Shown here in pieces: positions 5,827 to 41,009 of a stretch of 51,578 bases of DNA; the first letter of the stretch is position 1; each line of letters opens with the position of its first letter. This DNA comes from Acidobacteriota bacterium (GTDB lineage: Bacteria; Acidobacteriota; Terriglobia; Terriglobales; Acidobacteriaceae). The translations under genes were made by a program, and so were the position numbers. The notes under the pieces were generated by a model, which worked only from the letters and a program-made list of their open reading frames with translations, searched no databases and had not been told where the DNA came from. The stretch is taken from positions 1-51,578 of the forward strand of contig QIAU01000196.1 in NCBI GenBank assembly GCA_003225055.1, written 5' to 3'.

Positions 5827-6101
5827 AACACACCCCCTGGAGAAGGTGCGGATCACGCACCAGGAGACCTCACCAAAGCGGGCATGAAATATCATCCTAC
5901 GCGCCAATTGGCAAGCGAATTGTGGGTTTGACGTTAACCGGTTTGGGCGAAGTGGGATATTAGCGCCACCTACGTACGTATTTGCGGTAAACATCGGGTC
6001 GCTTGGGCCGTGAACAGGCCCTCTACAACCGACTCATTTTCGGGTATTGTGGGCAACCGAAAACTCGAGGAGGGGCTCGCATGCGCAGCCGAAGCCCACA
6101 C

Positions 6102-19430: not shown

Positions 19431-19861
19431 GGCAAGCCTCTTCAGGGGACGAAGGTTATACAAGCTTCCGTAAGCCGGTCACGACATTTATTTCGCAACC
19501 TCGATATTTTGCAGTGCAGAACACGTCGTCGCTCCGGATGTAGTTTCTAAAGGGCAAATCGGCTGGACAAATGGCTCCCCTGCCTGCCTGGAGGGACAAA
19601 CCCCTTTCGGGAAGCCGGGTCGGACGGGTCATTCTACAGTGCGCAATAGGGTTCCTGAACGAGCGGCGATACTTTAAGAAGGGTTCCGGGAAGTCATTGT
19701 CGGTTAAGGCCTTAGTACCTCGCTCCTTCGCCTTGGGCGGGGCTACGGCGCCAGCCGGTTCAGGGGTGCGCCCGCGCGGAGGACGTTCAACGAGTAATTT
19801 CGCTTTGCAAAATAGGAAAAACGAATACTATATTCCGCGCTACGAGTTTTTTATCCGCCAG
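19431..19861. promoter_or_regulatory. Divergent regulatory region between rhaI and its likely regulator
   Basis: About 430 bp without a convincing gene. The regulator's frame stays open upstream of 19862, but that translation lacks family resemblance. The region contains ATTTTGCA at 19506-19513 and its exact inverse TGCAAAAT at 19806-19813, roughly 300 bp apart, each near one of the two divergent genes. These could be paired operator half-sites for the hybrid regulator, but an 8-bp AT-rich match can arise by chance. Confidence 0.35.
19455..19482 (-). promoter_or_regulatory. Candidate promoter of the rhamnose operon
   Basis: On the minus strand a -35-like GTGACC (19477-19482) is followed after 16 bases by a -10-like TATAAC (19455-19460). 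A transcript would begin about 18 bases before the rhaI ATG, leaving just enough room for its GAAGAGG ribosome site. Four or five of six bases match consensus in each box, so this is plausible but unproven. Confidence 0.35.
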
Positions 19862-25353: not shown

Positions 25354-25389
25354 ACGCGCACTCGCCTTCTTTGAGGTAGCATTCGAGCT

Positions 25390-26613
25390 ATGTCCGACCT
25401 GCGTTGGGCCGCCTTTTGGATCTGCTTGACGCTCTCCTGCGTGGTGGTTTGCCTCGGCAGTGGCTGCGCTCTGGGACAAGCATCATCCGCCGGTGCGGCG
25501 GAACATTACTCCGCGGAGGGGCAGCGGGCGTTGGCGCAAGGAGATTACTCCCGGGCCGAGCAGGCGTTCGAGAAACTGTGCCAGCTCGAACCCGGCGTCG
25601 CCGAAGTCCATGCCAACCTCGGCCTGATCTATTTCGAGGAACGCAAGTTTGACGAGGCTGTGCCTGCGCTCCGTCAAGCTTTGAAGCTGAAACCCAGCCT
25701 GCTGAAGTCGGAGAGTCTCTTAGCCATGTCCCTTTCCGAGCTTGGCCACTACAACGAAGCGCTACCCGGTCTGGAGAAGGGCTTTCGTCGATCCTCCGAC
25801 CCGGAGATCAAGCGCATGTGCGGACTCGAATTGGAGAGAGCCTACACTGGACTAAAACGGGACAACCAAGCCGTAGAAGTCGCCCTGGAACTCCAACGCC
25901 TTTATCCCAGCGATCCTGAGGTCCTCTATCACAGCGGGAGAATCTTCGGAAACTTCGCTTTCTTGAGCGTTCAGAAACTAGCTCAAGTCGCGCCGAATTC
26001 AGTGTGGCGCCACTTGGCTGCGGCCGAGGCACATGAAAGCCAGGGCACCTATGACCAGGCGATTCAGGAATACCGCGAAGTGCTCAGGCTCGAACCGCAA
26101 CACCCGGGTGTGCACTATCGGATTGGCCGCACGCTGCTTTCTCGTTTCTGGCAGCACCATTCAGCGGAAGACACGGCCGAGGCGGAAAAGGAATTTGAAG
26201 CGGAGTTGCAGCTGGACCCCACGAATGCCAACGCCGCGTACGAATTGGGAGAAATGCATCGCAAAGCCAGCCAAAGCGACGAAGCACGACAGTACTTCGA
26301 ACAAGCAGTAAAACACTACCCTGACTTCGCGGAAGCGCACCTGGGGCTCGCCGCAGTCCTATTAGAGAAGAAGCAGCCGGAACAAGCGCTGATACACGTA
26401 CAGAAGGCGGTCGAAGCGGACCCGGGTAACGAGGTGACATGGTATCGGCTCGCCCAGGTTCAGAAAACGTTGGGGAATTCCAGTGAGCAGCAAAAGGCGC
26501 TGGCTGAATTCCGGCGCCTTCACCAAGAGTCCACGCGAGAGAAGGGATTCGATCTAACCGGACCGGCCTCAGAAGTGACCAAACAGGAGATCGAGCCCAA
26601 GGCAGGGCGCTGA
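25390..26613 (+). CDS. Secreted tetratricopeptide-repeat protein 1
   Basis: A 407-residue protein with a hydrophobic signal sequence (AAFWICLTLSCVVVCLGSGC). The Cys does not sit in a standard lipobox, so cleavage after ALGQA by signal peptidase I is as likely as lipidation. The remainder is about eight to nine TPR-like helical pairs, for example LAQGDYSRAEQAFEKLCQLE, YDQAIQEYREVLRLEPQHPG and PEQALIHVQKAVEADPG. No enzymatic motif is seen; such proteins act as protein- or ligand-binding scaffolds. It is a clear paralogue of the protein at 36155-37363: both share a QVAPxSVW segment and the same repeat phasing, and both neighbour a TonB receptor. A role in receptor assembly or glycan capture is inference. 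Confidence 0.85.
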   Translation: MSDLRWAAFWICLTLSCVVVCLGSGCALGQASSAGAAEHYSAEGQRALAQGDYSRAEQAFEKLCQLEPGVAEVHANLGLIYFEERKFDEAVPALRQALKLKPSLLKSESLLAMSLSELGHYNEALPGLEKGFRRSSDPEIKRMCGLELERAYTGLKRDNQAVEVALELQRLYPSDPEVLYHSGRIFGNFAFLSVQKLAQVAPNSVWRHLAAAEAHESQGTYDQAIQEYREVLRLEPQHPGVHYRIGRTLLSRFWQHHSAEDTAEAEKEFEAELQLDPTNANAAYELGEMHRKASQSDEARQYFEQAVKHYPDFAEAHLGLAAVLLEKKQPEQALIHVQKAVEADPGNEVTWYRLAQVQKTLGNSSEQQKALAEFRRLHQESTREKGFDLTGPASEVTKQEIEPKAGR

Positions 26614-26630
26614 GGCTCATTCCGCTCGGG

Positions 26631-28154
26631 TCAGGGAAATGTAACCACCGCCACGGCGTATCCGTTCAGCTGGAACGTATCAGCGGTCAAGTTCCGACTG
26701 GCCGGCGGCTGGAAGTTCGTGCTCTGATCCACATAGTCGACTCGCCCTCCGCTGGCCCCCGGCATCGAAATATCGAACAGGCGGTCGCGTTTATTTACCA
26801 CGAGCACGCGCCGCTTGCCGGCACGCGTCACAAACGCCAGCGAGTAGACATAAGGATGATTCGACGCGAAGGCGTGGAATGGCTCGATCTCGACCAGTTT
26901 GTCGCCGGGACCGAAGTTGTCATGGAGAAGCTTTAGCACCCAATAGCGCGCATTCGGCTTCCCGTCGTTCCAGTCAACCATAGAGACGCTGGGAAACTGG
27001 GTAGGAAACCCCACAAGCTGTGACTCACCCGCCACGTCAATACCGATCTTGGTCAATTCGCCGAAGATGTAGGCGTACATCGCCCCCGCCAGATTCCAGT
27101 AAGAATCCGGAATCGGCTTAGCGACATGCCCGGGCTCCCCCTGGGTGAGGTCGTCGGCCGAGATTACGCCCAGTTCATCGATGGTGGTCTTGGTCTGGGG
27201 TGACAGCCGTTTGCGAATCGACTCCACATAGCGCACCGTCTTCAGGAATCCATCGGCCTGGTCAAAGTAGGTGAACTGTTCGATCTCCGGGGTCTGGTCC
27301 GCTGTCGGGACCGCATAAAAGTGATAGGAGATGAAGTCGAGCGGCACCCCAGGCTCGTGATTCCTGTGATCAAGAAAATACTCAAAATAGTGGGGATCGG
27401 TGGACATCGCCAGCGCCAGCCCCACGAACTTCATGTCCGGCTGGACCTTTTTCATGGCGGTTACCACCGCGTCGTACAGCCGAGTATAGGTTTCGACGTC
27501 AGTGTGGTGCTCAAACTCCACCTCGTTCAAAACCTCCCAGTAGGGGATGGAGTAGTGGTAGCCCGACTCGTGGCGCTTGCCGAACTCGTCCGTGAACCCG
27601 CCCTGGGTGTACCACGCGAGCAACCGGGCGTAATATCCGGCGACCTCCTTCATGCTCGGATCACGCAGTTCGGTTCCCTTTTCGTATTCCCATGTGACCT
27701 GGTTGGGGTCCGCCGGATAGGGCACGGGCGTGTCGGTCTTGTACATCCACTGCGGGATCGTGCTGAAGTTGAGAATGACCGAATGCCCTTTCGTGGCCTC
27801 GAGGAAGTCGATCGTCATGGGATCAATGGTCGAGAAGTCCCACGATGTTTTGCCGTCCTCAGGGGGCTCCAGTTCCGCGACACCCAGTTTCGGATAGGGC
27901 AACCACGGCACATAGCGGACATAGTCAGCACCGAGGTCGTGCAGCGCCTTAAATGCGTTATCGTGCACGGGCGTCCCACGCCGTAGCGGAGGATTGACCA
28001 CGACTTGCAGAGTGGGCGTGGTCTCGGAGGCACGAATGACCTTATCCCAATGGACAACGACTTTCGCGGGTGGATCCTCAGCCCGCACAGTTCCTGCTAT
28101 GACGCATGCGAGCGCCAAAAGGGTGAGCCATTGCCATCGCGAACTGACATTCAT
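26631..28154 (-). CDS. Clan GH-A glycoside hydrolase, GH39-like, secreted
   Basis: A predicted exported hydrolase of 507 residues. The start at 28154 follows GGGGGAGGG and opens a signal peptide (MNVSSRWQWLTLLALACVIA, cleavage after VRA). The (beta/alpha)8 barrel shows clan GH-A catalytic positions: Asn-Glu in IPYWEVLNEVEFEHH near residue 207 (acid/base) and Glu in KTTIDELGVIS near 322 (nucleophile). The C-terminal 90 residues form a small beta domain (RVLVVNKRDRLFDISMPG). Overall shape is closest to GH39 (beta-xylosidase/alpha-L-iduronidase-like), but the exact family and substrate cannot be settled by reading. Its stop lies 18 bp from that of TPR protein 1 (convergent), and it is divergent from the isomerase-GH106 pair. 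Confidence 0.8.
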   Translation of the reverse strand: MNVSSRWQWLTLLALACVIAGTVRAEDPPAKVVVHWDKVIRASETTPTLQVVVNPPLRRGTPVHDNAFKALHDLGADYVRYVPWLPYPKLGVAELEPPEDGKTSWDFSTIDPMTIDFLEATKGHSVILNFSTIPQWMYKTDTPVPYPADPNQVTWEYEKGTELRDPSMKEVAGYYARLLAWYTQGGFTDEFGKRHESGYHYSIPYWEVLNEVEFEHHTDVETYTRLYDAVVTAMKKVQPDMKFVGLALAMSTDPHYFEYFLDHRNHEPGVPLDFISYHFYAVPTADQTPEIEQFTYFDQADGFLKTVRYVESIRKRLSPQTKTTIDELGVISADDLTQGEPGHVAKPIPDSYWNLAGAMYAYIFGELTKIGIDVAGESQLVGFPTQFPSVSMVDWNDGKPNARYWVLKLLHDNFGPGDKLVEIEPFHAFASNHPYVYSLAFVTRAGKRRVLVVNKRDRLFDISMPGASGGRVDYVDQSTNFQPPASRNLTADTFQLNGYAVAVVTFP

Positions 28155-28538
28155 AACCCTCCCCCTTTCAAATTGGAATCGCTTATCTTGTGCCTTCGAG
28201 CCACTGAACATCGTCGCGCCGCGACACGCGGGGATGCGGCATCCTCCCATCCAGTTAGAGGTACGTCAAAGGGCAATCGATTACCGCAGGACATTTCGCG
28301 CTGAGAAATCGAAAGCGACGCGGGCCTGATGGTCCTCTGTCCGTCAGGAATCGGGATGCAGCCCATCGAATGACCACCGATCGCTGTCGATACCCGCCGA
28401 AAATAAGTGCCTGTTGTTTTCGCAGTGCAGAACGCCTGGTTCCCGCAACTCGGCGCTTGCTCGGGCGGCGGGTGCTGGCTAAGCTCAAAATCCCACTCCG
28501 TGGTTTTGCATGTGGACTCGAGTGCGACTCCCTCGCTT
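28155..28538. promoter_or_regulatory. Divergent promoter region between GH39-like and isomerase genes
   Basis: A 384-bp intergenic region from which two sugar modules are transcribed in opposite directions. At 28272-28285 lies GGCAATCGATTACC, a 14-bp palindrome centred on a CG step with one mismatched pair. That is the geometry of LacI-family operators. A second inverted repeat, ATTTC and GAAAT seven bases apart, lies at about 28293-28309. The broken LacI gene at 465-1570 is the only LacI-type regulator in the window, so the cognate factor is unknown. Confidence 0.45.
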
Positions 28539-29981
28539 ATGACCGCTGCTGTTTCTCACAAGTCGCTCAAAGTCGGCATTTTCGGCATTGGCCTCGACAC
28601 GTACTGGCCCCAGTTCGAGGGCCTGGAGGAGCGCCTCCGCGGGTATGTCGAAGTCGTTGCCCAACGGATTGAAAGGCCCGGCGTAGAGGTCATCAAACTG
28701 GGTTTGGTTGATACTCCCGAGAAAGCGCTGGCTGCCGGACATGAGTTTCGCCGCGCCGACGTGGATCTGATTTTCTTGTACGTCACCACCTATGCGCTTT
28801 CTTCGACAGTGTTGCCGGCGGTGCGTCGGGCCAAAGTGCCGGTCATCATCCTCAATCTCTCACCCGCGGCGGCGATTGATTACGCATGCTTCAATCGGCT
28901 CGGCGACCGCACCAAAATGACCGGCGAATGGCTGGCTCACTGCTCGCCCTGTCCGGTGCCGGAAATCGCGAATGTCTTTCAGCGTAGCGGGATCCCCTTT
29001 TATCAAGTGAGCGGGATGCTGGAGAACGATCCCGCCGCGTGGGCTGAGATCGGCGAGTGGATCGAAGCGGCCCGGGTCGCCCGCGTCATGGAGCACAACC
29101 GTCTGGGCGTCATGGGCCATTATTACGGCGGCATGCTGGATATTTATACCGACTTGACAGTGCAAGCGGCGTGCTTCGGCGGCCACATTGAGATTCTCGA
29201 AGTCGAGGAGTTAGCCTCGCTGCGCCGGGAGGCAACGGAGGCGAGCGTCGACAGGAGAGTGGCCGATTTCATGAAGGCCTTTGATGTCGAGGCCGACTGC
29301 TCCGGGGAAGAACTTCGTCGCGCCGCCCGCACCTCGGTTGCACTCGACCGTCTGGTCGAACAACACCGGCTCGGTTCGCTGGCGTACTACCATAAGGGCA
29401 CGGGAAACGCCGACAACGAGGAAGCCATCCGTTCCATCATTCTGGGCACCAGCCTGCTTACGGCACGAGGGATTCCGGTCGCCGGCGAGTATGAAATCAA
29501 GAACGTGCAAGCCATGAAGATCATGGATGCCTTCGGCGCCGGAGGGTCCTTCACCGAATACTACGCAGTGGATTACAACGACGACGTTGTGCTCATGGGC
29601 CATGACGGTCCTGGCCACATCGCGATCGCCGAAGGAAAAACCAAGGTACGGCCACTCACGGTCTATCACGGCAAGACAGGCCGCGGCCTGTCAGTTGAAA
29701 TGTCGGTGAAGCACGGCCCTGTCACTCTGCTGGCGGTAGCCGAATCCGCCCAAGGGAAGCTGAAGTTGGTTGTCGCTGAAGGCGCGTCCGTGCCCGGGCC
29801 GGTGCTTGAGATTGGTAACACGAATAGCCGCTACCGGTTCCCGATTGGCGCCAGGCGGTTCATGAATGAATGGAATGCTACGGGTCCGGCACACCACTGT
29901 GCCGTAGGGCTGGGTCATATTTCAAGCAAGCTGAAAAAGCTCGGATTTCTGCTGGGTATGGAGTACGTCCAAGTCTGCTGA
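28539..29981 (+). CDS. Sugar isomerase of the L-arabinose/L-fucose isomerase superfamily
   Basis: A 480-residue cytoplasmic protein. The start ATG at 28539 is chosen because homology begins at KVGIFGIGLDTYWPQFEGLE. The frame is open upstream to 28407 but looks random there, and no strong ribosome site is visible. The superfamily fold is recognisable from an N-terminal Rossmann-like domain (DVDLIFLYVTTYALSSTVLP) and a C-terminal isomerase domain. The latter carries AYYHKGTGNADNEE, IPVAGEYEIKNVQAMKIMDA, VDYNDDVVLMGHDGPGH and a His-containing ending TGPAHHCAVGLGH, likely metal and substrate contacts. It is divergent from true AraA, so the substrate is open. It ends 45 bp before the second GH106 gene, suggesting it isomerises a sugar released by that module. 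Confidence 0.8.
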   Translation: MTAAVSHKSLKVGIFGIGLDTYWPQFEGLEERLRGYVEVVAQRIERPGVEVIKLGLVDTPEKALAAGHEFRRADVDLIFLYVTTYALSSTVLPAVRRAKVPVIILNLSPAAAIDYACFNRLGDRTKMTGEWLAHCSPCPVPEIANVFQRSGIPFYQVSGMLENDPAAWAEIGEWIEAARVARVMEHNRLGVMGHYYGGMLDIYTDLTVQAACFGGHIEILEVEELASLRREATEASVDRRVADFMKAFDVEADCSGEELRRAARTSVALDRLVEQHRLGSLAYYHKGTGNADNEEAIRSIILGTSLLTARGIPVAGEYEIKNVQAMKIMDAFGAGGSFTEYYAVDYNDDVVLMGHDGPGHIAIAEGKTKVRPLTVYHGKTGRGLSVEMSVKHGPVTLLAVAESAQGKLKLVVAEGASVPGPVLEIGNTNSRYRFPIGARRFMNEWNATGPAHHCAVGLGHISSKLKKLGFLLGMEYVQVC

Positions 29982-30026
29982 ACCAACAATTTAACGAAGC
30001 ATGGTCACAACCAGGAGACAACGCCT

Positions 30027-33000
30027 ATGCTGACCCAACTTTGCGCTGCGCGAAAACCTCCCCGCCTGGTGTCGGTTGCCGTCGTTCTGGCGTTGACGCT
30101 CGCTGCCGCCGCGCAGGACGAGAAATCCGACCCGCTTGCCCGAGGCTTCCGAAACCCGCCTGACTCGGCCAAACCGCGTGTTTGGTGGCATTGGATGAAC
30201 GGTAACATAACCAAGGAAGGCATCAAGCTCGACCTCGAGTGGATGCAGCGCGTCGGCATCGGCGGCTTCCAGAATTTCGACGCCGCGCTTAATACTCCTA
30301 AGTTGGTCGATCACCGGTTGGTCTATATGACGCCGGAATGGCAGGATGCCTTCCGCTATGCCACGGAACTTGCCGACCGACTGGGCCTGGAAGAAGCGAT
30401 TGCCGGCTCGCCCGGATGGAGCGAATCGGGCGGGCCCTGGGTTAAGCCCAATCAGGGCATGAAGAAAGTGGTGTGGAGCGAAACCAGGGTGGAGGGCGGA
30501 AAGCCTTTCTCGGGCGTGTTGCCCCACCCGCCGACGGTCAGCGGTCCATTTCAAAATGTACCGCTCTTCGATTTCCTCGCGTTAATCAGTGGTCAGACAC
30601 CGGAGGCAGCCCCGGTCTTCTATGCCGACTCGGCAGTGGTAGCGTACCGCGCGCCCGAAAGCGACGTCCCGGTTTCCGCTTTGCGACCGACGATCACGTC
30701 CAGTGGCGGCAACCTTGATCTAAGCGTTTTGACCGATGGCGACCTGGTGAAAACGACCGCGCTGCCCAAAGCGCCCGCAGGCCAGCGGGCATGGATCCAG
30801 TACGAATTTTCCGCTCCCGAGACCATGCGCGCCGTGACCCTGGCGTTCCATGACCCGGCGGCGGCCATGGCGAACAGGTTCGGAGCTGCACCCCCTGTTG
30901 CCGACTTGGAGGCGAGCGACGATGGTCAAAATTTCCGCAAGCTGGCCGATATTCCCAACGACGGCGCCGTGGAACACACCATCGCATTTTCCCCGGCCAG
31001 CGCCCGATTCTTCCGCGTGAACTTCACCGATAAACCGCCTTCCGGTTTCCGCACCATGCCCTTCGACGTGGAGAATCCATTTGGCGATTTCAGCGCCGTG
31101 AAGCCTGGCCCAAACTTTCAGATCTCGGAGCTTGTCCTGCATCCCGGCGCTCGGGTGAGCCGCTTCGAGGAGAAGGCCGGCTTCGCCAACCTACGCAGCT
31201 TCGATTCGTTTTCCACCCCTCCCGTCGCGGCTCGAGATGCCATTCCGAAAAGCGACATCGTCGATCTAACTTCCAAACTGCACCCTGACGGCACTCTCGA
31301 TTGGATACCCCCCGCCGGCCACTGGGTCGTGTTGCGCTTCGGCTGCTCGCTGACCGGAGTTACCAACCATCCCGCCTCGCCCGAAGGAACCGGACTCGAG
31401 GTCGACAAGCTTAGCCGCGAATACGTCAGGGAATACATGAACACTTACCTCGACAATTACAGGGGTGCGGTCGGACCTCTCATGGGGAAGCGAGGATTGC
31501 AGTATGTGATCAACGACAGCTGGGAAGCAGGCACGGCCAACTGGACCGACAATCTGATTACCGAGTTCACCCGGCGCCGTGGATACGATCCGGTTCCGTG
31601 GTTGCCGGTGCTCGCAGGCCGCGTCATCGAAAGTGCGGAAGCGAGCGAAGGATTTCTGTGGGACTTCCGCGAGACGCTCGGCGATATGTTAGCCGAGTAT
31701 CACTATGATCAGATCACCGATATTCTGCATCAGCGCGGCATGGGCCACTACGGCGAGTCGCACGAAGAAGGACGCGCCTTCATCGGCGACGGAATGGAAG
31801 TCAAGCGCAGCAACGATGTCCCGATGTCGGCAATGTGGACGCAGAAACCGGGTGTAAACAAGGAGCAATATGGTTACGACGCCGACATTCGCGAATCGGC
31901 TTCAGTCGCTCACATCTACGGCCAGAATCTCGTCGCTGCTGAGTCGCTGACTGCCGCTTCCGGCGCCTGGGCCTGGTCGCCAGCCACGCTCAAGCCAACG
32001 GCTGACAAAGAAATGGCCATGGGCCTGAATCGGTTCGTCATTCACACTTCTGTTCATCAGCCGCTGGTGGATAAGAAACCTGGACTCGCCCTCGGTCCGT
32101 TCGGACAATGGTTTAACCGCAACGAAACCTGGGCCGAGCTGGCCAAGCCATGGGTGTCGTATCTCGCCCGCAGTTCATACCTGTTACAACAAGGCAAGTT
32201 CGTAGCGGATATCGCGTACTTCTACGGCGAAGACTCCAACATCACCGCCATTTATGGAGACCACTTTCCCGACGTGCCCGCCGGCTACAACTTCGATTAT
32301 GTCAACGCCGACGCCCTTATCCACAAGTTCTCTGTGGCTGGCCCTAGTCTCATAACGCCCAGTGGTATGAGCTATCGCATACTGGCGCTCGATCCTCGCT
32401 CGAAACAGATGTCACTGCCGGTCCTGAAAAAAATCAACGAATTGGTTGAAGCCGGAGCGATTGTAGTCGGCGCCAAGCCCGAAAACACTCCCAGCCTGGC
32501 TGACAATCAGGCCGAGTTCCATTCCCTGGCAGACAAGCTGTGGGGCGCTGGCATTGGCGCAAGCACTGGAAATGGCAAGGTCTATGGCAGTCAGAAGTTA
32601 GCCGATGTGCTCGAGACCCTGAACATCGGGCGCGACTTTGAGTACGAAAAACCTACACCCGATACCGACATTCTTTTCGTTCATCGCAAACTGGCTGACG
32701 GCGATCTCTACTTTGTGGATAACCGCAACGATCGTGATGAAGCCTTTGACGCCGCATTCCGCGTGCAAGGAAAATCCGCCGAACTTTGGCACCCCGACAC
32801 AGGACAAATCGAGCCAGCTTCCTACCAATTTGCAGATGGCAGAACACGGGTGCCGCTGCGCCTCGAACCCTGGGGCACGGTCTTTGTGGTTTTCCGCCAG
32901 GCCGCGACAGCGTCTTCCCGCACGGTACCGACTGTTCTCGAGGAAGCCCTTCGAACTGTCGAGGGGCCATGGGATGTGGCATTTCAACCGGATCGTGGCG

Positions 33001-33440
33001 CTCCACCCAGGATCACACTCGACAAACTCACTTCGTGGCACCAGAACAGTGATGCCGGGGTGAAATATTTCTCGGGTACTGCAAGTTATACAAAAACGAT
33101 CCAGGCTCGAGCGGAATGGTTCAAGCCGAGGGCTCGTCTATGGATTGATCTGGGAACGGTCAAAAACCTGGCGGAGGTCTCCGTTAACCGCAAGAACCTT
33201 GGCATTGTCTGGAAGGCGCCGTATCAGGTCGATGCGACTGGAGCACTGAAGCCCGGCACGAACAGAGTGGAAATCAAAGTCACAAACGGCTGGGCGAACC
33301 GCATCATTGGCGACCGGCAACCGGGCGTCACCAAGACGTATACCTTCACATCCCCAAAGTTTTATAAGGCAGACGCGCCCTTGCAGCCTTCCGGACTCCT
33401 GGGCCCGGTCAGAGTCCTTCGCACCCGCAGGAAGAATTGA
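30027..33440 (+). CDS. GH106 alpha-L-rhamnosidase, secreted
   Basis: A predicted exported enzyme of 1137 residues, close to the usual GH106 length. The start follows AGGAG; the signal peptide is LVSVAVVLALTLAAAAQ. The N-terminal part of the catalytic region reads PRVWWHWMNGNITKEGIKLD near residue 50, a GH106 hallmark. YVINDSWEAGTANWTDNL near 494 and VAAESLTAASGAWAWSP near 636 hold the likely catalytic acids. Between these, residues about 200-390 carry a discoidin-like beta-sandwich insertion (DLEASDDGQNFRKLADIPND). A C-terminal jelly-roll (VSVNRKNLGIVWKAPYQVDA) closes the protein. Known members cleave alpha-L-rhamnose from rhamnogalacturonan-type chains. Cotranscription with the isomerase is likely. 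Confidence 0.9.
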   Translation: MLTQLCAARKPPRLVSVAVVLALTLAAAAQDEKSDPLARGFRNPPDSAKPRVWWHWMNGNITKEGIKLDLEWMQRVGIGGFQNFDAALNTPKLVDHRLVYMTPEWQDAFRYATELADRLGLEEAIAGSPGWSESGGPWVKPNQGMKKVVWSETRVEGGKPFSGVLPHPPTVSGPFQNVPLFDFLALISGQTPEAAPVFYADSAVVAYRAPESDVPVSALRPTITSSGGNLDLSVLTDGDLVKTTALPKAPAGQRAWIQYEFSAPETMRAVTLAFHDPAAAMANRFGAAPPVADLEASDDGQNFRKLADIPNDGAVEHTIAFSPASARFFRVNFTDKPPSGFRTMPFDVENPFGDFSAVKPGPNFQISELVLHPGARVSRFEEKAGFANLRSFDSFSTPPVAARDAIPKSDIVDLTSKLHPDGTLDWIPPAGHWVVLRFGCSLTGVTNHPASPEGTGLEVDKLSREYVREYMNTYLDNYRGAVGPLMGKRGLQYVINDSWEAGTANWTDNLITEFTRRRGYDPVPWLPVLAGRVIESAEASEGFLWDFRETLGDMLAEYHYDQITDILHQRGMGHYGESHEEGRAFIGDGMEVKRSNDVPMSAMWTQKPGVNKEQYGYDADIRESASVAHIYGQNLVAAESLTAASGAWAWSPATLKPTADKEMAMGLNRFVIHTSVHQPLVDKKPGLALGPFGQWFNRNETWAELAKPWVSYLARSSYLLQQGKFVADIAYFYGEDSNITAIYGDHFPDVPAGYNFDYVNADALIHKFSVAGPSLITPSGMSYRILALDPRSKQMSLPVLKKINELVEAGAIVVGAKPENTPSLADNQAEFHSLADKLWGAGIGASTGNGKVYGSQKLADVLETLNIGRDFEYEKPTPDTDILFVHRKLADGDLYFVDNRNDRDEAFDAAFRVQGKSAELWHPDTGQIEPASYQFADGRTRVPLRLEPWGTVFVVFRQAATASSRTVPTVLEEALRTVEGPWDVAFQPDRGAPPRITLDKLTSWHQNSDAGVKYFSGTASYTKTIQARAEWFKPRARLWIDLGTVKNLAEVSVNRKNLGIVWKAPYQVDATGALKPGTNRVEIKVTNGWANRIIGDRQPGVTKTYTFTSPKFYKADAPLQPSGLLGPVRVLRTRRKN

Positions 33441-33553
33441 CGGTCCAGGAGTTCATCGAATCCCTTCCGGCATTTCCTGAAGTTCTCGGTCTGGCCGAAA
33501 CTGGCCGAATAGACTCCTTGCCGTCAAGCCAAGGAACTCGGTATCATGGCGAG

Positions 33554-33583
33554 CCAGAAAGCTCTTTCTTAAGCTGGTTTTTT
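33554..33583 (+). terminator. Possible weak terminator after the GH106 gene
   Basis: CCAG (33554-33557) and CTGG (33574-33577) flank AAAG/CTTT-rich inner pairing, and a run of six T follows. It lies 114 bp after the GH106 stop and touches the TTG start proposed for the receiver protein, so either the hairpin or that start may be wrong. Confidence 0.25.
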
Positions 33584-33983
33584 GCCTTTGGACAACGTAG
33601 TTTTCCACTCCCAGCGCCTCTTGTTTGTCGATGACGAGGAGAGCATCCGCGCAATGCTTCCTGCGATCCTGAAGGGACAAGGGTTTGACCTCAAAACTGC
33701 GGCCAGTGTGCCGCAAGCACTCCAGAAGATACGACGCCACAAGTTCGACGGACTGCTGGCGGCCCTGAATATTCGCGAGCCGCACGACGGGTATGCGATC
33801 GTCGGCGCCATGCGACAGGTTAATCCGCGCTGCGTTGCCATTATCTTGACGGCGTACCCGGACTTTTGCAGGGCTGTCGAAGGTATTCACTATGACATCG
33901 ATGACTACTTCGTGAAACCTGTGGATATTGATGCCCTTGTCGCGACGTTGCGAAGAAGACTAGCAGCGCGGCTGTCCCACTAG
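33582..33983 (+). CDS. Single-domain response-regulator-like receiver lacking the phospho-acceptor Asp
   Basis: A 133-residue stand-alone receiver domain. It keeps the acidic pocket (LLFVDDEESIRAML), the conserved Thr (ILTAYPDF) and the Lys (DDYFVKPVDIDAL). At the phosphorylation site the sequence reads FDGLLAALNIREP, where related single-domain receivers read LLxDLNI. The codon is GCC where GAC is expected. Phosphotransfer to the usual site is therefore impossible, suggesting a constitutive, phosphorylation-independent or decaying protein. No kinase is adjacent. The start is a TTG at 33582 without a good ribosome site, so a shorter form is possible. It is convergent with an SDR remnant and overlaps its end by 4 bp. 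Confidence 0.8.
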   Translation: MPLDNVVFHSQRLLFVDDEESIRAMLPAILKGQGFDLKTAASVPQALQKIRRHKFDGLLAALNIREPHDGYAIVGAMRQVNPRCVAIILTAYPDFCRAVEGIHYDIDDYFVKPVDIDALVATLRRRLAARLSH

Positions 33984-34377
33984 CTCGGTATGACAAAGCG
34001 CACCTTGTCCCTCATACGAAGAGGCAGGCCGGTTTTATTGGTATTAAGAACTTCATTCAGTTCAGTAGTGTCTCGCTGGTAGAACCCAGAGGGGTGGGCT
34101 TCCACACTCCCGCATTGTTTACCAGGACGGCAAAGCTGGTATCCTTGAGCAACTCGACCATGCCGGAGATCGAATGCATTGACGCAAGACCCGCCTGCAC
34201 GAGCGTAGTTTGCGACTGCAGCAGCATGGTACGCATTTCCTCTGCGGCGGCCCAATTGCGGTGGTAGTGAACGATCAGTCGCGCGCCTTCTGCATCAAGT
34301 GCTCGGCAAATCGCCCTTCCAATCCCACGCGGTCCACCAGTCACCAATCTGATCTGGTTTCTCAAGCTATTAAGCAT
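33980..34377 (-). pseudogene. Short-chain dehydrogenase remnant
   Basis: From ATG 34377 the frame reads RLVTGGPRGIGRAICRALDA, the SDR nucleotide-binding motif, then FAVLVNNAGVWKPTPLGSTS with the conserved NNAG. Just after SETLLN it meets a stop at 34057. A one-base shift continues NEVLNTNKTGLPL and then ends at 33980 with unrelated residues. The catalytic Ser and YxxxK and the whole C-terminal half are missing, so no active enzyme is made. A second change in the motif (TGGPRG) is tolerated in some SDRs. Confidence 0.75.
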
Positions 34378-34572
34378 AAGACCGAGTTGATTTTCAGGTG
34401 CCGCCGTAGAAAATTATCGCATGTAGAGTGGACAGGCGTTCCCAGGGCGCAGGAGATTCTTCGATAGAACCTCGGGGTCGATGAATAGGCTGACCTGGGT
34501 TAATGCGACCGGACTATCCGTTCAAGTTTTGTGCCTGGGTCTAAGCAACTCATACACAGCAGAGGAAAATGC

Positions 34573-35937
34573 ATGATTCGAAGAAAATTGCTGCTTCCCG
34601 TGCTGCTAAGTTTTGTTCTCTATCCCGTCGCCCTGGCGCAATTGCCGGCAGCCCCGCCAAATCCGCCGCCGGACGACCGCTATAAGGCCGACATTCTACT
34701 TATCGTCGCGCATCCGGACGACGATTCCTTGGCTGCTCCATATTTGGCGAAGGCCCTCTACGAGGAACACAAACGTGTGTCTGTGATTTATGGCACGCGC
34801 GGCAACGCTGGCGGGAACGCTGTGGGCAATGAACAAGCTGCATCCCTTGGCGCAGTACGCGAAATCGAAGGACGTCGAGCTCTAGCCTCCTTGGGGATAC
34901 TTGACGTTTGGTTTCTCAATAGTCCAGATACTCCGGGCCAGGACGTATTGCATTCCCTGGAGACCTGGGGGCACGGCGCCTCTTTGGAACAAGTAGTGCG
35001 GTTAGTGCGGCTCACGCGACCGGAAGTAATTCTGACGTGGCTCCCGCACTACGTTGCAGGCGAAAATCACGACGATCACCAGGCGGCAGGCGTGCTCGCC
35101 ACCGAAGCCTTCGACCTTGCCGGCGATCCCGTGGCATTCCCCGAACAGATAGAAGCACCCCGCGATCACACTGCCATCGGCAACTATGGCGAGGGGCTGC
35201 ATCCGTGGCAGCCGAAAAAGATCTATTACTTCTCCGACGCTACCCATTTCGAATTCCTTGAGGGCCGCGGACCCGAGTACAAAACCAGCGATGTGTCGCC
35301 TTCGAAGGGTGTTCCCTACGCAAAAATTGTCTCCGACGCATGGATGAATGACAAGTCGCAGCTGCCGGCGAACCAAGCCGATCTCAAAAAATACTTGGAT
35401 CAATACCTCAACGAGCCGGTACGGTTCGTCCTGGGAAAATCGCTGGTGAAAGGAAGCACCAGGGGAGATGTCTTCGAGGGGATCACACCAGGAACGATTC
35501 CATACGTGCGGGCACGGGGATACGAGCCTATAGCGCGACAGGGAGTGTCATTGGAATTCGGAGGGCCATGGGCTTACTATCGCGCGTTCTGGCGATCGCA
35601 CAATCTTGACCATTTGTCGCGGTTGCTAGCGCCTGAAACTGCCTTAGGCGGGCCCGACAACACGGTTTGGGTCCCGCTTCTAATTCATAACGATTCCGAC
35701 TCGCCGAAACAGGTCACATTGCGGTCGGTCTTGCCCCCGGGGTGGAGCGAGAAACCAGGTCCGATGATTTATTCCCTAGCCGCGCATGATGCCTACCCGG
35801 TCCAAATAAATGTTGTAGCACCGGAATCGCAAAAGAATACTTGGCAGCAATTGACGTGGAGAGCGGAAGCTGACGGTCAAGTGATTGGTTCGGTTACGCT
35901 CCGAGTGCACGTCAATTACAACGGAGTTCCGCAGTAG
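34573..35937 (+). CDS. PIG-L/LmbE-family deacetylase, secreted, with C-terminal NEW3-like domain
   Basis: A 454-residue exported hydrolase. The start at 34573 follows AGAGGAAA and opens a signal peptide (MIRRKLLLPVLLSFVLYPVA). The PIG-L domain binds zinc through the AHPDDD motif near residue 46 (usual form HPDDE; the last Glu is Asp here) and the His of GENHDDHQAAG near 175. Members remove N-acetyl groups from GlcNAc-containing substrates. Residues about 360-454 form a beta-sandwich resembling the NEW3 domain of secreted glycosidases (VWVPLLIHNDSDSPKQVTLR). It stands alone between the SDR remnant and TPR protein 2. The substrate is unknown; an amino-sugar part of a polysaccharide is plausible. 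Confidence 0.85.
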   Translation: MIRRKLLLPVLLSFVLYPVALAQLPAAPPNPPPDDRYKADILLIVAHPDDDSLAAPYLAKALYEEHKRVSVIYGTRGNAGGNAVGNEQAASLGAVREIEGRRALASLGILDVWFLNSPDTPGQDVLHSLETWGHGASLEQVVRLVRLTRPEVILTWLPHYVAGENHDDHQAAGVLATEAFDLAGDPVAFPEQIEAPRDHTAIGNYGEGLHPWQPKKIYYFSDATHFEFLEGRGPEYKTSDVSPSKGVPYAKIVSDAWMNDKSQLPANQADLKKYLDQYLNEPVRFVLGKSLVKGSTRGDVFEGITPGTIPYVRARGYEPIARQGVSLEFGGPWAYYRAFWRSHNLDHLSRLLAPETALGGPDNTVWVPLLIHNDSDSPKQVTLRSVLPPGWSEKPGPMIYSLAAHDAYPVQINVVAPESQKNTWQQLTWRAEADGQVIGSVTLRVHVNYNGVPQ

Positions 35938-35985
35938 CACCCAGCGGAAGCGGGACCGTGGCCGGCGCAGTGTTTCGTACGCGGC

Positions 35986-36036
35986 GGCAACCTCGGCAAC
36001 CTGGCAACCTCGATCTTCTGGCAACCTCGATCTTCT
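35986..36036. repeat. 17-bp tandem repeat with partial 9-bp copies
   Basis: GGCAACCTCGATCTTCT occurs twice in tandem (36003-36019, 36020-36036). It is preceded by shorter copies GGCAACCTC and GGCAACCT from 35986. It lies in the 217-bp gap between the PIG-L deacetylase and TPR protein 2. It looks like slippage expansion; no protein or known RNA motif was recognised. Confidence 0.85.
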
Positions 36037-36154
36037 TGACACGAAAGGGGCCGCGGGTGTAAAGCTTCTCCCGCAAATAGAGTGGGATCGGAAACTTCTG
36101 TTGCCTGCCAGTCGGAGGTAACCGAGTGGGAGTCTGAGGTTCCGAGGGGTCCCG

Positions 36155-37363
36155 GTGAGGGCTGCGCCAAGGCAAGTTGCGTTCTGTTTGTTGTGCTGCA
36201 TGCTCGCGTTCGAGGGCATCCCGAAGAGCCTTGCTGCGCAGAAAGTAAACCAGTCCGAAATCGAAATCACGTCAAAGCAGGCCGAAGAGGCTATGGCCGC
36301 GAAGGATTGGGCCGTGGCCGTGAAGGCCCTGGAAAAGCTCGCCGGGCTGGCCCCCGATGTCTCTCAAGTTCAGGCAAACCTGGGACTAGCTTACTACTCG
36401 GACAATCGAATTTTGGAGGCCAGTAAGGCCTTTGAACGGGCACTAAAGTTGAATCCGAAGATGACTCAGGCCGAGATGATGTTGGGCCTGTGTTATGCCG
36501 AGTTGGGACGCAACCAGCAGGCGGTATTCATCCTGTCCCCGGCGTTCCGCCGCCCGTCCGACAAGCAGATGGGACGCCTCCTCGGCTTGGACCTTCAGCG
36601 CGCCTATGAAGGCCTGCACCAGCACGATAGGGCCACGGCGGTTGCCGACGAGCTGCTGAAGCGCTATCCCGATGATCCGGAAATTCTGTTTCACTCGTCG
36701 CGCCTGTATGCGGACCGGGCCTACGAGCTGATGACGCAGCTGATGCAGGTCGCTCCCGGCTCAGTGTGGCTCCACTATGCGACGGCGGAGGTTCATGCAA
36801 GCCTGCAGCGCTATGATCTGGCCATCGTTGAGTACAAGAATGTTCTGGCTATGGAACCCAGAATGCCAGGAATTCACTTCCGGTTGGGGCGGGCAATTCT
36901 CGAGGGTTCCAAGGAAATGAATGCGGTTGAGCAAGCCTTGCATGAATTTGAACTGGAACTAAACTTATCGCCGGATAACTCCGATGCCGAATATGAGATC
37001 GGCGAGATCTATCGACAGCGGGGCGAATTCGAGTCCGCGCTGGCACACTTCTCTAAAGCGGTTCAACATCATCCCGACTTCCCTCAGGCTCGCATCGGTT
37101 TAGCCAGCACCTTAATCAGTCAGGGAAGATCGCAGGAAGCGCTCGGCCATTTGTTGGAAGCGGTTCGGGTCGAGCCTCAAAATGAAGTCGCGCATTTTCG
37201 GTTGGCCTCAGTCTACAAGGCGCTGGGCGACACGGCCAACCAGCAAAAGGAAATGGCATTCTTTCAGAAGCTCCATTCTGCTAGAGCCAGGAATGTGCTG
37301 CCGTTATCGGGTCCCTCTGTCACCCAGCAAATTATCGAGATAGAGAATCACATGCCACCATAA
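36155..37363 (+). CDS. Secreted tetratricopeptide-repeat protein 2
   Basis: A 402-residue protein. The GTG at 36155 is chosen because it completes a signal peptide (MRAAPRQVAFCLLCCMLAFE, cleavage near SLAAQ) and follows GAGGGG. The body is TPR repeats such as MAAKDWAVAVKALEKLAGLA, ILEASKAFERALKLNPKMTQ and FESALAHFSKAVQHHPDFPQ. It aligns along its length with TPR protein 1, including LMQVAPGSVWLHYATAEVHA and MPGIHFRLGRAIL, so the two arose by duplication. It lies 130 bp upstream of TonB receptor 3 on the same strand, whereas TPR protein 1 follows receptor 2. No catalytic residues are visible. A partner role for the receptor is inferred from the repeated pairing. Confidence 0.85.
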   Translation: MRAAPRQVAFCLLCCMLAFEGIPKSLAAQKVNQSEIEITSKQAEEAMAAKDWAVAVKALEKLAGLAPDVSQVQANLGLAYYSDNRILEASKAFERALKLNPKMTQAEMMLGLCYAELGRNQQAVFILSPAFRRPSDKQMGRLLGLDLQRAYEGLHQHDRATAVADELLKRYPDDPEILFHSSRLYADRAYELMTQLMQVAPGSVWLHYATAEVHASLQRYDLAIVEYKNVLAMEPRMPGIHFRLGRAILEGSKEMNAVEQALHEFELELNLSPDNSDAEYEIGEIYRQRGEFESALAHFSKAVQHHPDFPQARIGLASTLISQGRSQEALGHLLEAVRVEPQNEVAHFRLASVYKALGDTANQQKEMAFFQKLHSARARNVLPLSGPSVTQQIIEIENHMPP

Positions 37364-37493
37364 GTTCGAGAGAAAACGAAAATCCACAAGTCACGTGGGC
37401 CGCTTTGTCGCGGCCGCAACCGTTCCGGAGTGGCAGCCGGCAGTCGATCGGGCATTACAGGTGAAACTCAACGTTGTAGGGGAGGTTTTCATC

Positions 37494-40400
37494 ATGCATT
37501 TCCCGAAAGTGATTATTCCAGTAGTGGCTTGGATGTTCCTGGTCTTGGCCTTCTCTCCTGCCGGGCTGGGCCAGGCGGTGTTTGGCAACATCACCGGCAC
37601 GGTGACAGATCCCACCGGGGCGGCAGTGCCCAACGCGGAAATTGCGATAACAGACCTCGACCGCGGTATCACCTATACGACCACGACCACCTCGGTCGGA
37701 AACTTTACGCAAACCCACTTGTTGGCTGGACACTATCGGGTGAAGGTCACAGCCCCCGACTTCTCGGAATATTCCACCATTGCAGACGTGCAGGTAGACG
37801 CGACCACGCGGGCCGACGCTCAGCTCCGGGTCGGCAAAGCGGAGACTTCTGTTACCGTAAGTACCGAGGGCCCGCTTCTGAAAACCGACCGAGCAGACGT
37901 CAGCAATACCCTGATGGCCAACGAAGTGGAGCAACTGCCGATTCTCAACCGCAATGTGACTACGCTGATCCTGGCGCTGCCCGGATCGCAGTTGAACGGA
38001 TTTCAGCACGCCTCCAGCGAGAATCCTCAAGGTGGACTGCAGATCAATGTCAACGGACAGTACTTCTACTCCAACGGATTCGAACTGGATGGAACGGAGA
38101 ATCACAGCAACATTCTGGGCATCGCCGTGATCAATCCCAACCCCGACGCGCTACAGGAATTCAAAGTAACCACCAGCAACTACGATGCTGAGTTCGGAAA
38201 CGTATCAGGCGCGCTACTTCAAGGGACGACCAAGTCGGGAACCAATCAGCTTCACGGTTCACTTTTTGAGTATGTTCGCAACGACAAATTCAATGCCGCA
38301 GATCCCTTCACCCACCTTAAGCCTCCATTGCGATGGAATCAATTTGGCGGCTCGCTGGGGGGCCCGCTGCGGAAGAACAAACTCTTTGGATTCTTCGATT
38401 ATCAGGGAACACGGCGTAGGACCGGGGGAGCGTTAATTACCACTGTCCCCACAGCCGCGGAGCGTACTGGCGACCTGAGTGCGTTGCTGGGCGATTACAT
38501 CTGCGCAAACGGCACCACGTCACCTGGTCCCTGCGCCAACCCGGAAAACGTAACCACCACGGAAGGTGCTGTGGTTCCGGCCCGTGCAGGGATGGTTTTT
38601 GATCCCGCGCAGGGTAATGCCGATGGGACCGGGCGCCCAGCGATCTCCTCCGGCGGCCAGGTCAATGTGTTGCCCGCCCCGAGTGCCTCCATGATCAAGT
38701 TGCTCGGTTTTTTGCCTGTGCCGAATTTTGGTGCTCCCGGTGATGTCGCTAACAACTTCGCGGCTGCTTTTTCCGAGAAGTTCGATAGTGACCAGTACGA
38801 CGGTCGCATTGATTACAATTTTTCGGAGGTCCATCACTTTTTCGGCCGTTACAGCATCGCCGACTTTACCAAGGAGTCTCCCGGCGCGTATGGAGAAGCG
38901 GCGGGAGGGCCGACGACCTTCCACTTCGCTGGCCGATCGCTGACCCGGAACCAGAGCCTCGCGTTGGGCTGGACCTACTCATTGAACCCGACACTAATTA
39001 CCGACGTTCGATTTGGCACATTTAGGTATCGGGTTCGAGTGCGGCCAGGAGGCTTCGGACTCAATCCAGCGAGCGATGCCGGACTGATTGGGCTGAACCG
39101 TGGCACTAGCGACACCAGCAGCATGCCAGCTTTTTACGTCACTGGCGATGGCGGATTCAATTTCGGGTACGGGCTGGTCGTCAACCAGTGCAACTGCCCC
39201 CTCAGCGAAACCGAGAACCATTTTCAATGGGTTAACAATTGGACCAAACAGACGGGCAATCACACCATCAAGTGGGGCGTTGATATACGCCGCGCGCAAA
39301 CCACTCGCATCGATAGCGGCAACCACCGCTCAGGCGAATTGACCTTTGCCGACAGCGTGACAGGTAGCGCCGACGTCGATACCATCGCAGCGGGCAGCGC
39401 CACGACAGGTCTTGGCCTTGCAACCTATTTGCTCGGCCAGCCCAGCTTCATCGCGCGCAATTTCACCACTCCTGGCTTTTATCCCAGCATCCGGCAGACA
39501 CGGCTGTATTTCTTCGGACAAGACTCGTGGCGTGCCACCTCCAAGCTGAGTATTGATTATGGGCTTCGCTATGAAAACTACCTGCCGCAGACTGGCGCGA
39601 AACCTGGCAGTGGAGGAAGCTTTGATCCCACCACCGGTGATGTGCTCGTAGCCGGCGTCGGATCCGTCCCCCCAAATTTCGGAGTCAAGCCGTACAATGC
39701 CGGGTTTGCGCCGCGCCTTGGGCTAGCCTACCGACTCCGGCTGGGCACGGCCCTTCGTGCCGGATACGGCCGCAGCTTCAACGCGGCGGGCGAGGGCGCC
39801 GTTTTCGGCCAGAATCCAGAACTTGACCCACCCGTGCAGTTCCCCCAGTTCCTGAGTGCGGCCAACATTTATTCATCCGCCGTTCCCACTTTTCTCACGA
39901 CTGGCCCGCCGCTGCCTCCGCCGTTCCCGATCGGCTCAAACGGACGCTTTCCCCTTCCCGACGGCGTGGGAGTTTATTTCTATTTTTATCCGCTAGACAG
40001 CTACCGCATCCCGCTGGCGGATTTCTGGAACCTGTCGGTACAACATGAAATTCGCTCTGACCTGACCGCTGAAATCGCGTACGTAGGCAACGTCGGCCGG
40101 CACCTATTTGTTAATCGCAATACCAACCAGGCAGTTCCAGGCCCGGGCGATCTTGGTCCGCGTCGCCCGTTCAACAAATTCGGTCTGTCGCAAGGAGTGT
40201 ACGACGTCTGCAATTGCGACAACTCAAGCTACCACTCGCTGCAGGCAAAACTTCAGAAGCGGACCTCCCACGGGTTGGATTTCCTGCTGACTTACACCTG
40301 GTCGAAAGTCATGACCAACTCCGAGGGTGGATACAACTTCTCGGACAACTACAACATCCGCGGCGACCACGGCCCTGCCAGCTGGGACCATACCCACGCC

Positions 40401-40931
40401 TTGACGCTGCTCCATACTTGGGATCTTCCTTTCGGCAAGGGGCGCCGTTGGGCTGCCAAGACCAGCAAGGTAGCGGAGGCATTTGTCGGCGGTTGGCGTT
40501 TCAGTGGCGTCACTACTCTCTTATCCGGCGCTGCCTTCACGCCCTTTGTCTCCAACGCGCCACTGCTGAACACAGATTTCAACAGCGTTCGTCCGGACAT
40601 CATTGGGAATCCCCATGTCCCGAATCCCAACCGTGACTTGTGGTTCAATCCCGCCGCTTACACCTCCCCGCAGCAACCCTTCCGCAACGGTACGGCTTCC
40701 AAGGGCTCGCTGCGTGGGCCGCCGCAATACCTGTTTAGCCTTTCCCTGTCCAAGGATTTCGTCATCACGGAAGGAAAGACCCTGGAATTCCGGTGGGAGA
40801 ATTTCAATGCCTTCAACCACACGAACCTTGGACTTCCGAATTCAACTGTGGACGTGTCCGATGCCGCACGAATTACCTCTGCTGCGACCGACATGCGGCA
40901 GATGCAGTGGGGCCTGCACTTCCGATTCTAG
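37494..40931 (+). CDS. Oar-like TonB-dependent receptor 3 with carboxypeptidase-regulatory-like domain
   Basis: An outer-membrane receptor of 1145 residues. The start at 37494 follows AGGGGAGG and opens the signal peptide MHFPKVIIPVVAWMFLVLAF (cleavage near GLGQA). A longer in-frame start at 37395 lacks a signal-like opening. The CarboxypepD_reg-like domain (NITGTVTDPTGAAVPNAEIA) is followed by the plug (VEQLPILNRNVTTLILALPG, FELDGTENHSNILGIAV, DALQEFKVTTSNYDAEFG) and a barrel ending in GLHFRF with a terminal Phe. It is only loosely similar to receptors 1 and 2 in the barrel, so a different ligand is likely. It lies between TPR protein 2 and the double alpha/beta-hydrolase. Confidence 0.93.
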   Translation: MHFPKVIIPVVAWMFLVLAFSPAGLGQAVFGNITGTVTDPTGAAVPNAEIAITDLDRGITYTTTTTSVGNFTQTHLLAGHYRVKVTAPDFSEYSTIADVQVDATTRADAQLRVGKAETSVTVSTEGPLLKTDRADVSNTLMANEVEQLPILNRNVTTLILALPGSQLNGFQHASSENPQGGLQINVNGQYFYSNGFELDGTENHSNILGIAVINPNPDALQEFKVTTSNYDAEFGNVSGALLQGTTKSGTNQLHGSLFEYVRNDKFNAADPFTHLKPPLRWNQFGGSLGGPLRKNKLFGFFDYQGTRRRTGGALITTVPTAAERTGDLSALLGDYICANGTTSPGPCANPENVTTTEGAVVPARAGMVFDPAQGNADGTGRPAISSGGQVNVLPAPSASMIKLLGFLPVPNFGAPGDVANNFAAAFSEKFDSDQYDGRIDYNFSEVHHFFGRYSIADFTKESPGAYGEAAGGPTTFHFAGRSLTRNQSLALGWTYSLNPTLITDVRFGTFRYRVRVRPGGFGLNPASDAGLIGLNRGTSDTSSMPAFYVTGDGGFNFGYGLVVNQCNCPLSETENHFQWVNNWTKQTGNHTIKWGVDIRRAQTTRIDSGNHRSGELTFADSVTGSADVDTIAAGSATTGLGLATYLLGQPSFIARNFTTPGFYPSIRQTRLYFFGQDSWRATSKLSIDYGLRYENYLPQTGAKPGSGGSFDPTTGDVLVAGVGSVPPNFGVKPYNAGFAPRLGLAYRLRLGTALRAGYGRSFNAAGEGAVFGQNPELDPPVQFPQFLSAANIYSSAVPTFLTTGPPLPPPFPIGSNGRFPLPDGVGVYFYFYPLDSYRIPLADFWNLSVQHEIRSDLTAEIAYVGNVGRHLFVNRNTNQAVPGPGDLGPRRPFNKFGLSQGVYDVCNCDNSSYHSLQAKLQKRTSHGLDFLLTYTWSKVMTNSEGGYNFSDNYNIRGDHGPASWDHTHALTLLHTWDLPFGKGRRWAAKTSKVAEAFVGGWRFSGVTTLLSGAAFTPFVSNAPLLNTDFNSVRPDIIGNPHVPNPNRDLWFNPAAYTSPQQPFRNGTASKGSLRGPPQYLFSLSLSKDFVITEGKTLEFRWENFNAFNHTNLGLPNSTVDVSDAARITSAATDMRQMQWGLHFRF

Positions 40932-41009
40932 CCATATACGCGGGGGGCGGTTTCGGACCTGCGTCCTACCGGCCCGCGAGCCCTGCGTCTTTGGGACTTC
41001 GGGGAGTCA

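Follow-up and report, generated by a model that had tools for sequence, protein, structure and literature searches.

Two paralogous tetratricopeptide repeat (TPR) proteins, P0001 and P0002, are encoded next to TonB-dependent receptors in a 51,578-nucleotide stretch of DNA from an Acidobacteriota bacterium (contig QIAU01000196.1, assembly GCA_003225055.1), analysed at its full length and referred to here as the window. They are best explained, tentatively and with a probability of about 0.4, as exported acidobacterial TPR solenoids with no lipid anchor that are recurrent partners of Oar-type receptors and would act as periplasmic scaffolds in rhamnoside uptake. The label "Oar-type" comes from a preliminary description of this DNA, where it was assigned without sequence comparison to Oar, and it is kept here as a presumed name for these receptors.

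Both TPR open reading frames (ORFs) of that description proved to be real, P0001 at 25390..26613 (plus strand, 407 aa) and P0002 at 36155..37363 (plus strand, 402 aa), and alignment showed them to be homologous over their length, with 42% identity and 63% positives over 399 aa (E 3e-102). Since P0002 was the best genome-wide match of P0001 after P0001 itself, with 303 bits versus 157 for the next TPR protein, the two share more than TPR sequence as such. In turn, P0001 was the best match of P0002 among the 19 receptor-adjacent TPR proteins compared. The claim that each gene adjoins an Oar-type receptor also stood. P0001 begins 89 bp past the stop codon of REC2 (21797..25300, plus strand, 1167 aa), and P0002 ends 31 bp before the called GTG start of REC3 (37395..40931, plus strand), in which residue 34 is, by reading, the likelier start Met.

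The proteins had been called secreted, which holds in the sense of exported: P0001 and P0002 have a hydrophobic signal core and neither fits the lipobox pattern, so that P0001 is exported and probably soluble. An N-terminal hydrophobic core was present in 18/18 aligned family members, while the strict lipobox pattern was found in 0/18 and the loose one in 1/18 (L088, before the signal core). Among 26 receptor-adjacent, same-strand TPR proteins, the core was seen in 23, the strict lipobox in one and the loose pattern in three, none of them just after the core. These calls are pattern-based and not those of a trained predictor, and the called start of some genes probably lies too far upstream. 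The signal core of P0001 does end in a Cys (GSGC), which does not fit the lipobox pattern and which orthologues have not retained. In diderm bacteria, a soluble Sec substrate remains periplasmic unless another export system acts on it. Therefore, the TPR protein, if it is a partner of the receptor, is likelier to sit on its inner side, and a periplasmic location looks likely.

Co-occurrence with receptors was analysed across the source genome (7.4 Mb, 301 contigs), which encodes at least 65 receptors with PF25183 (of 175 first-look candidates, 65 were scored and 65/65 matched) and has 30 TonB_C matches. A total of 107 genome matches to P0001 were merged to 69 TPR genes. For 12/65 receptors, a TPR match began on the same strand less than 700 bp past the barrel, where uniform placement would give 0.24 (Poisson P 7e-17), and no match lay within that distance on the opposite strand for any of the 65. 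The next same-strand downstream ORF of at least 170 aa was a TPR gene for 15 of the 61 receptors with a neighbour in view (4/65 had none), in a count where TPR, receptor and CRTAC1 ORFs took precedence. The upstream same-strand neighbour was a TPR gene in 2/62 cases, one of them P0002-REC3. In two relatives, the downstream and upstream figures were 5/43 and 1/42 (G049) and 2/39 and 1/38 (G139), covering the receptors with listed coordinates (43/45 and 39/44, respectively). Downstream TPR neighbours were on the same strand as the receptor in 15/16 cases in the source genome and in 5/6 and 2/3 in the relatives. Apart from TPR genes, the same-strand neighbours downstream (29, 25 and 24 in the source genome, G049 and G139) formed related sets of at most two members, the largest in the source genome being two pairs, one of them of receptors. 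Since these sets are so small, TPR is the sole clearly recurrent downstream partner in the source genome and in G049, and in G139 two other pairs are as frequent. The co-occurrence check was thus positive, with TPR genes beside Oar-type receptors far above chance in the source genome and less strikingly so in the two relatives. Receptors are also numerous in other genomes, with at least 44–52 matches in six relatives and at least 9 and at least 14 in two more distant ones. A decayed pair was observed on contig C104 (locus L027, 3708-4376), where the TPR gene downstream of the receptor is shortened, with an in-frame stop in the homologous stretch, and a transposase-like ORF adjoins it.

The REC2-P0001 arrangement is conserved beyond the source genome. 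Proteins similar to P0001 at E<=1e-45 were found in 7/199 sampled Acidobacteriota genomes, source genome included, and, at 53–64%, in five contigs of acidobacterial metagenome-assembled genomes (L092-L096). An orthologue of REC2, with 49–75% identity, was present in 10 of 16 loci (L081-L096), and the TPR gene was downstream on the same strand in 10/10. It was directly adjacent in seven (L084, L085, L086, L092, L093, L094 and L095) and separated by one gene in L081, L082 and L083, this being a GH106 gene in L082 and L083. GH106 or Rha genes accompanied the pair in 8/10 of these loci; L095 had a GH39-like gene only and L085 none. The TPR match in L095 is not covered by a single open frame, the L084 receptor gene is split into two ORFs, and L096 reaches the contig edge before any receptor. 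In the distant genome G188, the five loci were varied: no receptor in L087, a REC3-like receptor in L088 and L089, CRTAC1 in L090 and another receptor in L091. This genome belongs to another family of Acidobacteriota; its seven P0001-like TPR matches, one of them 62% identical to P0001, occur in varied settings, and horizontal transfer or expansion are suggested as alternatives. In other families of the phylum, 30 TPR loci from 13/14 genomes, with flanks of only about 1.5 kb, carried a receptor tag in three (L106, L110 and L116) and CRTAC1 in four; the L116 tag looks spurious, as one short ORF was tagged both receptor and TPR.

Pfam TPR models matched both P0001 and P0002. The AlphaFold2 (AF2) model of P0001, built with 18 sequences, had a predicted local distance difference test score (pLDDT) of 90.8 and is a TPR solenoid of nine to ten repeats by count, helical throughout with short loops. 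A central 25-residue helix (residues 176-200; 25915..25989, plus strand), delimited by DSSP of the model and containing conserved residues, lies inside the solenoid, and residues 388-407 form a disordered tail (pLDDT<50). Among the best 50 matches listed for each fold search were OGT, BBS4, MamA, PilW/PilF and designed TPRs. The closest solved folds included the OGT TPR domain (6eou; Z 22.7, 329 residues aligned, root-mean-square deviation (rmsd) 17.0), MamA (3vty; Z 21.3, 175 aligned, rmsd 2.5) and PilW (2vq2; Z 17.1, 179 aligned, rmsd 4.5), a generic TPR likeness with no context in common. Residues conserved in at least 12/13 close family members were R142, R150, D175, E177, Y180, N188, W206, E213, E216, S217, H242, R244, R247, N281, Y284, E285 and Q399 of the tail. 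The charged and aromatic ones are mostly in the first helices of repeats 4-8. In TPR stacks, the first helices make up the concave side, and the conserved residues are predicted, from this helix order rather than from model coordinates, to line the concave groove.

The disordered tail of P0001 contains the motif EVTKQE (residues 395-400; 26572..26589, plus strand), located by alignment and in the model, and P0002 has SVTQQI (residues 388-393; 37316..37333, plus strand), located by alignment and pattern. An EVTxQ-type pattern written from the family matched 12/18 aligned members, 5-13 residues from the C-terminal end, with near variants in L096 and L086 and no match in the G188 members of L089 (two), L090 and L091. 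The tail marks most of the subfamily. The possibility that it is a shared address tag was rejected, since, among proteins outside the family, the pattern had no match in the window and L081-L096, and none within the last 40 residues in the loci examined.

As for the receptors, REC2 and REC3 both carry PF13620 (CarboxypepD_reg) and PF25183 (OMP_b-brl_4). The AF2 model of REC2 (pLDDT 74.5) has a beta domain at its N-terminus (27-108), followed by a disordered linker (111-123), which sits where a TonB box could be, and by a plug and barrel. Residues 119-1167 aligned to known TonB-dependent transporters (TBDTs) with Z 28.1-34.6 among the best 50 matches listed. By its model, REC2 has the TBDT fold and is not specially SusC-like, and NCBIfam gave no SusC match for REC2 (0 families) or REC3 (one family, other than SusC).

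The window itself is an L-rhamnose/rhamnoside locus, with RhaT, isomerase, kinase, aldolase/dehydrogenase, one GH78-type and two GH106 rhamnosidases. In such a setting, the receptor, once opened by TonB, would admit a rhamnosylated glycoside or oligosaccharide. The TPR solenoid beneath the receptor would hold this substrate, or rhamnosidases of the GH106/GH78 type, in its conserved concave groove and would thereby couple import to cleavage. The rhamnose freed would then pass to RhaT and the Rha enzymes, and the disordered EVTxQ-type tail could serve as a peptide that docks to the receptor or to another envelope partner. The position of the TPR gene beside importer genes suggests, and does not prove, that its product is a working partner of importers; we infer the receptor contact, the ligand and the docking role of the tail.

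The putative periplasmic scaffold is modelled on the PgaA TPR module and on AlgK-AlgX, and the analogy would transfer their role to import. AlgK is a lipoprotein. The available part of PMC9384988 describes the PgaA TPR module as interacting with PgaB, raising PgaB activities and apparently binding poly-N-acetylglucosamine (PNAG) via its concave groove, and that of PMC9734138 describes AlgK-AlgX as binding alginate oligosaccharides. On these partial accounts, the likeness would lie in a TPR solenoid on the periplasmic side that works with an outer-membrane barrel, binds glycan and recruits glycan enzymes. Those systems export polysaccharides, whereas a TonB-dependent barrel and a catabolic locus are found here, and in PgaA the TPR module and the pore belong to one protein, unlike the apparently soluble TPR protein found here, which has a gene of its own. 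An outer-membrane tie of the PgaA/AlgK type was not found, given the absence of a lipobox match, the separate gene and the catabolic rather than secretion locus. Periplasmic TPR proteins in a Tol/TonB-type setting are also known from CpoB and from a TPR gene beside tolQR-like/vWA genes, described in the available part of PMC12204202 as TPR proteins of Tol/TonB-type motors. By that description, and not by sequence, they are set apart as tied to motor genes and not to receptors.

The history of the genes was compared on a FastTree receptor tree, for which a long-branch warning applies to C104/C175. The label of having any TPR neighbour needed 11 changes, versus 16.5 in shuffles, with 0/500 shuffles as low. 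A single clade of TPR-associated receptors was rejected, as these are clustered but scattered on the tree. The sister of REC3, C204, likewise has a TPR gene upstream. P0001 is 44–64% identical to its orthologues and about 40% identical to P0002, and since the orthologues are closer than the paralogue, the P0001/P0002 split looks older than the genera compared.

Several results weigh against a receptor-bound scaffold. The label of a downstream TPR gene alone was weakly clustered (11 changes versus 13.6 in shuffles, 19/500 as low). P0001 and P0002 were mutual best matches in the genome comparisons made, and REC2 and REC3 are not sisters. Receptor and TPR distances over 19 pairs gave a Mantel r of 0.39 (4/10000 permutations as high) with a rank correlation of -0.04. 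This mirror-tree signal came from a few close pairs (C100/C20 and C276/C233), in a set that kept C104, with its broken TPR gene, and C20, with masked bases near the end, and co-evolution was not used as support. In addition, the association is weak in G139 (2/39), 46/65 receptors of the source genome, including a few at contig ends, were labelled as having no TPR neighbour, and the 16 loci compared with the window were fetched by their TPR gene and do not tell how often REC2 is found without one.

A further point against it is the association with CRTAC1/ASPIC-UnbV genes, of which 28/40 lay within 3 kb of a TPR gene, versus 2.8 expected. At the same distance, 29 of the 69 TPR genes were near CRTAC1, 23 near a receptor (5.75 expected) and 10 near both. 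Since the CRTAC1 link is at least as strong, the TPR family is not receptor-specific and the receptor need not be the partner. The TPR protein looks like a hub of two kinds of envelope module, and it could be a general envelope adaptor, a scaffold for several extracytoplasmic systems, receptors and CRTAC1/FG-GAP proteins among them, adjacency reflecting nothing but the same catabolic locus. A CRTAC1 gene lies between the TPR and GH39 genes in the rhamnose loci L081 (6864-8657, domains assigned by Pfam) and L096 (1278-3029), and none is there in the window. The GH106 gene that parts REC2 and TPR in L082 and L083, and the few receptor-TPR pairs that look co-duplicated, also favor an adaptor. By contrast, CRTAC1 genes near the 65 receptors were at chance at 1.5 kb (2 versus 2.0 expected), though not at 3 kb (8 versus 3.05), and the same-strand, directly downstream position of the TPR genes argues for a specific receptor link. 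A general adaptor is therefore considered a real but somewhat unlikely alternative. CRTAC1 genes were also seen beside exported TPR genes in L036, L043 and L079 and on contigs C98, C55, C288, C259, C77 and C118 of the source genome, and CRTAC1-TPR is a second, apparently uncharacterised acidobacterial gene pairing.

The preliminary description had proposed an analogue of the SusC/SusD pair, an interpretation that found partial support. The co-occurrence and the synteny speak for it, and SusD_RagB (PF07980) had no match in 197/199 sampled Acidobacteriota genomes, source genome included (E<=0.001 for the source genome). Because SusD_RagB was not found in the source genome, there is room for a SusD analogue. 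The likeness extends to a TonB receptor with an N-terminal CarboxypepD_reg beside a TPR-partner gene in a glycan locus, as in SusC/SusD and RagA/RagB, and the REC2 model matched chain A of the levan utilisome (8a9y, the SusC part by fold match) with Z 28.9, 605 residues aligned and rmsd 3.8. A surface lid, with the TPR protein capping the receptor from outside and capturing glycans, would agree with the receptor-TPR gene order, which is like susC-susD, and with the SusD-like RagB, described as a lid of four TPRs in the available part of PMC11817032. On the other hand, the partner here is a plain solenoid with no strict lipobox in the family, REC2 matches other TBDTs better, and the link to CRTAC1 has to be set against the analogy. 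No SusD model was among the listed Pfam matches of P0002 (22/22) or the best 25 of 28 of P0001, SusD models other than SusD_RagB being covered by this Pfam scan only. SusD is described with a loop-rich subdomain besides its TPRs (available part of PMC2954216), and the P0001 model, the one TPR protein modelled, has none of this type. SusD was also outside the best 50 matches of either fold search with this model, which by itself excludes nothing. Membership in the SusD family was thus rejected on domain, lipobox and fold, and a surface lid is improbable, also in view of the periplasmic retention of soluble Sec substrates mentioned above.

Equally improbable is an assembly or quality-control factor, in which the TPR protein would help to fold or insert the neighbouring barrel. 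BamD and BepA are exported TPR proteins that serve outer-membrane proteins. Both appeared among the generic sub-cut-off TPR matches, and each gene does adjoin one particular receptor. A dedicated chaperone would be odd when 46/65 paralogues were labelled as having none, and the conserved charged residues suggest a specific ligand. To our knowledge, no TPR cargo has been described, which counts against a reading in which the receptor would secrete a protein and the TPR protein would be the cargo or its adaptor; this is highly improbable, as the GH106 or Rha genes in 8/10 REC2-TPR loci point to uptake. Its precedent is Oar of Myxococcus xanthus, described in the available parts of PMC6434023 and of the review PMC11658791 as a TBDT required for secretion of the protease PopC, with no TPR partner in that part of the review.

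Regarding the remaining genes of the window, three Oar-type receptors were identified by Pfam, the third, REC1 (2317..5994, minus strand), having no TPR neighbour in its gene neighbourhood. The first GH106 alpha-L-rhamnosidase (PF17132) is at 6728..9559 (plus strand) and the second, matching PF17132 over its full length, at 30027..33440 (plus strand). The alpha-L-rhamnosidase with Bac_rhamnosid domains (PF17389 and PF08531; 9816..13160, minus strand) is presumed here to be of the GH78 type. The L-rhamnose/proton symporter RhaT (12986..14155, minus strand; NF010024) and the rhamnulose-1-phosphate aldolase/short-chain dehydrogenase (14551..17025, minus strand; NF006189 and TIGR02632) scored above cut-off, while rhamnulokinase (16760..18370, minus strand; TIGR02627, 469 bits) and L-rhamnose isomerase (18240..19463, minus strand; TIGR02635, 499 bits) were below the curated NCBIfam cut-offs of 528 and 531. 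They are followed by a regulator (19571..20998, plus strand) with an IclR-type helix-turn-helix (HTH) domain (PF09339) fused to a periplasmic-binding-protein-like sugar-sensor domain (PF13407), an unusual fusion that may sense rhamnose, with relatives at 77-78% in L092 and L093. Between the two TPR genes are also a GH39-like hydrolase (26631..28250, minus strand; PF01229), a fucose/arabinose-isomerase-like protein (28407..29981, plus strand; PF02952 and PF11762) and, directly upstream of P0002, a PIG-L-type deacetylase (34531..35937, plus strand; PF02585). The last may be relevant or a coincidence, since the TPR region of PgaA is described, in the part of the literature available, as contacting a de-N-acetylase domain. 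At 48004-49033, two overlapping frames together resemble, by reading, one metallophosphoesterase with a frameshift. A promoter and terminator scan of 21500-41100 gave sites not above shuffles (6 versus 7.8 and 18 versus 21.5, respectively) and was uninformative on operon structure.

Among the open-access papers listed, some dealt with SusD/RagB, and none was seen to describe an acidobacterial TPR-receptor pairing or a soluble TPR protein as partner of TonB receptors. Neither TPR nor Acidobacter occurs in the available part of the 2024 TBDT review (PMC11658791). That of a 2011 paper on Solibacter names groups of paralogues for TonB-receptor, CnaB and ASPIC/UnbV, with no occurrence of TPR, and TonB receptors are merely mentioned in the accessible text of PMC7074687. 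The novelty here would be that a TonB importer has a new type of accessory protein, the function of which we infer. A bolder form of the scaffold reading, which we regard as unlikely, is a second, independently evolved two-protein TonB glycan importer, in which a dedicated, recurrent TPR partner of the much expanded Oar-type receptors would work on the periplasmic side and dock by its EVTxQ-type tail, in a phylum with almost no SusD. Many Acidobacteriota have dozens of Oar-type receptors and almost no SusD, and a recurrent gene partner of these receptors is a concrete candidate. If the contact with the receptor is shown, TonB-dependent import would be a further task of periplasmic TPR scaffolds, which are known from the secretion of polysaccharides.

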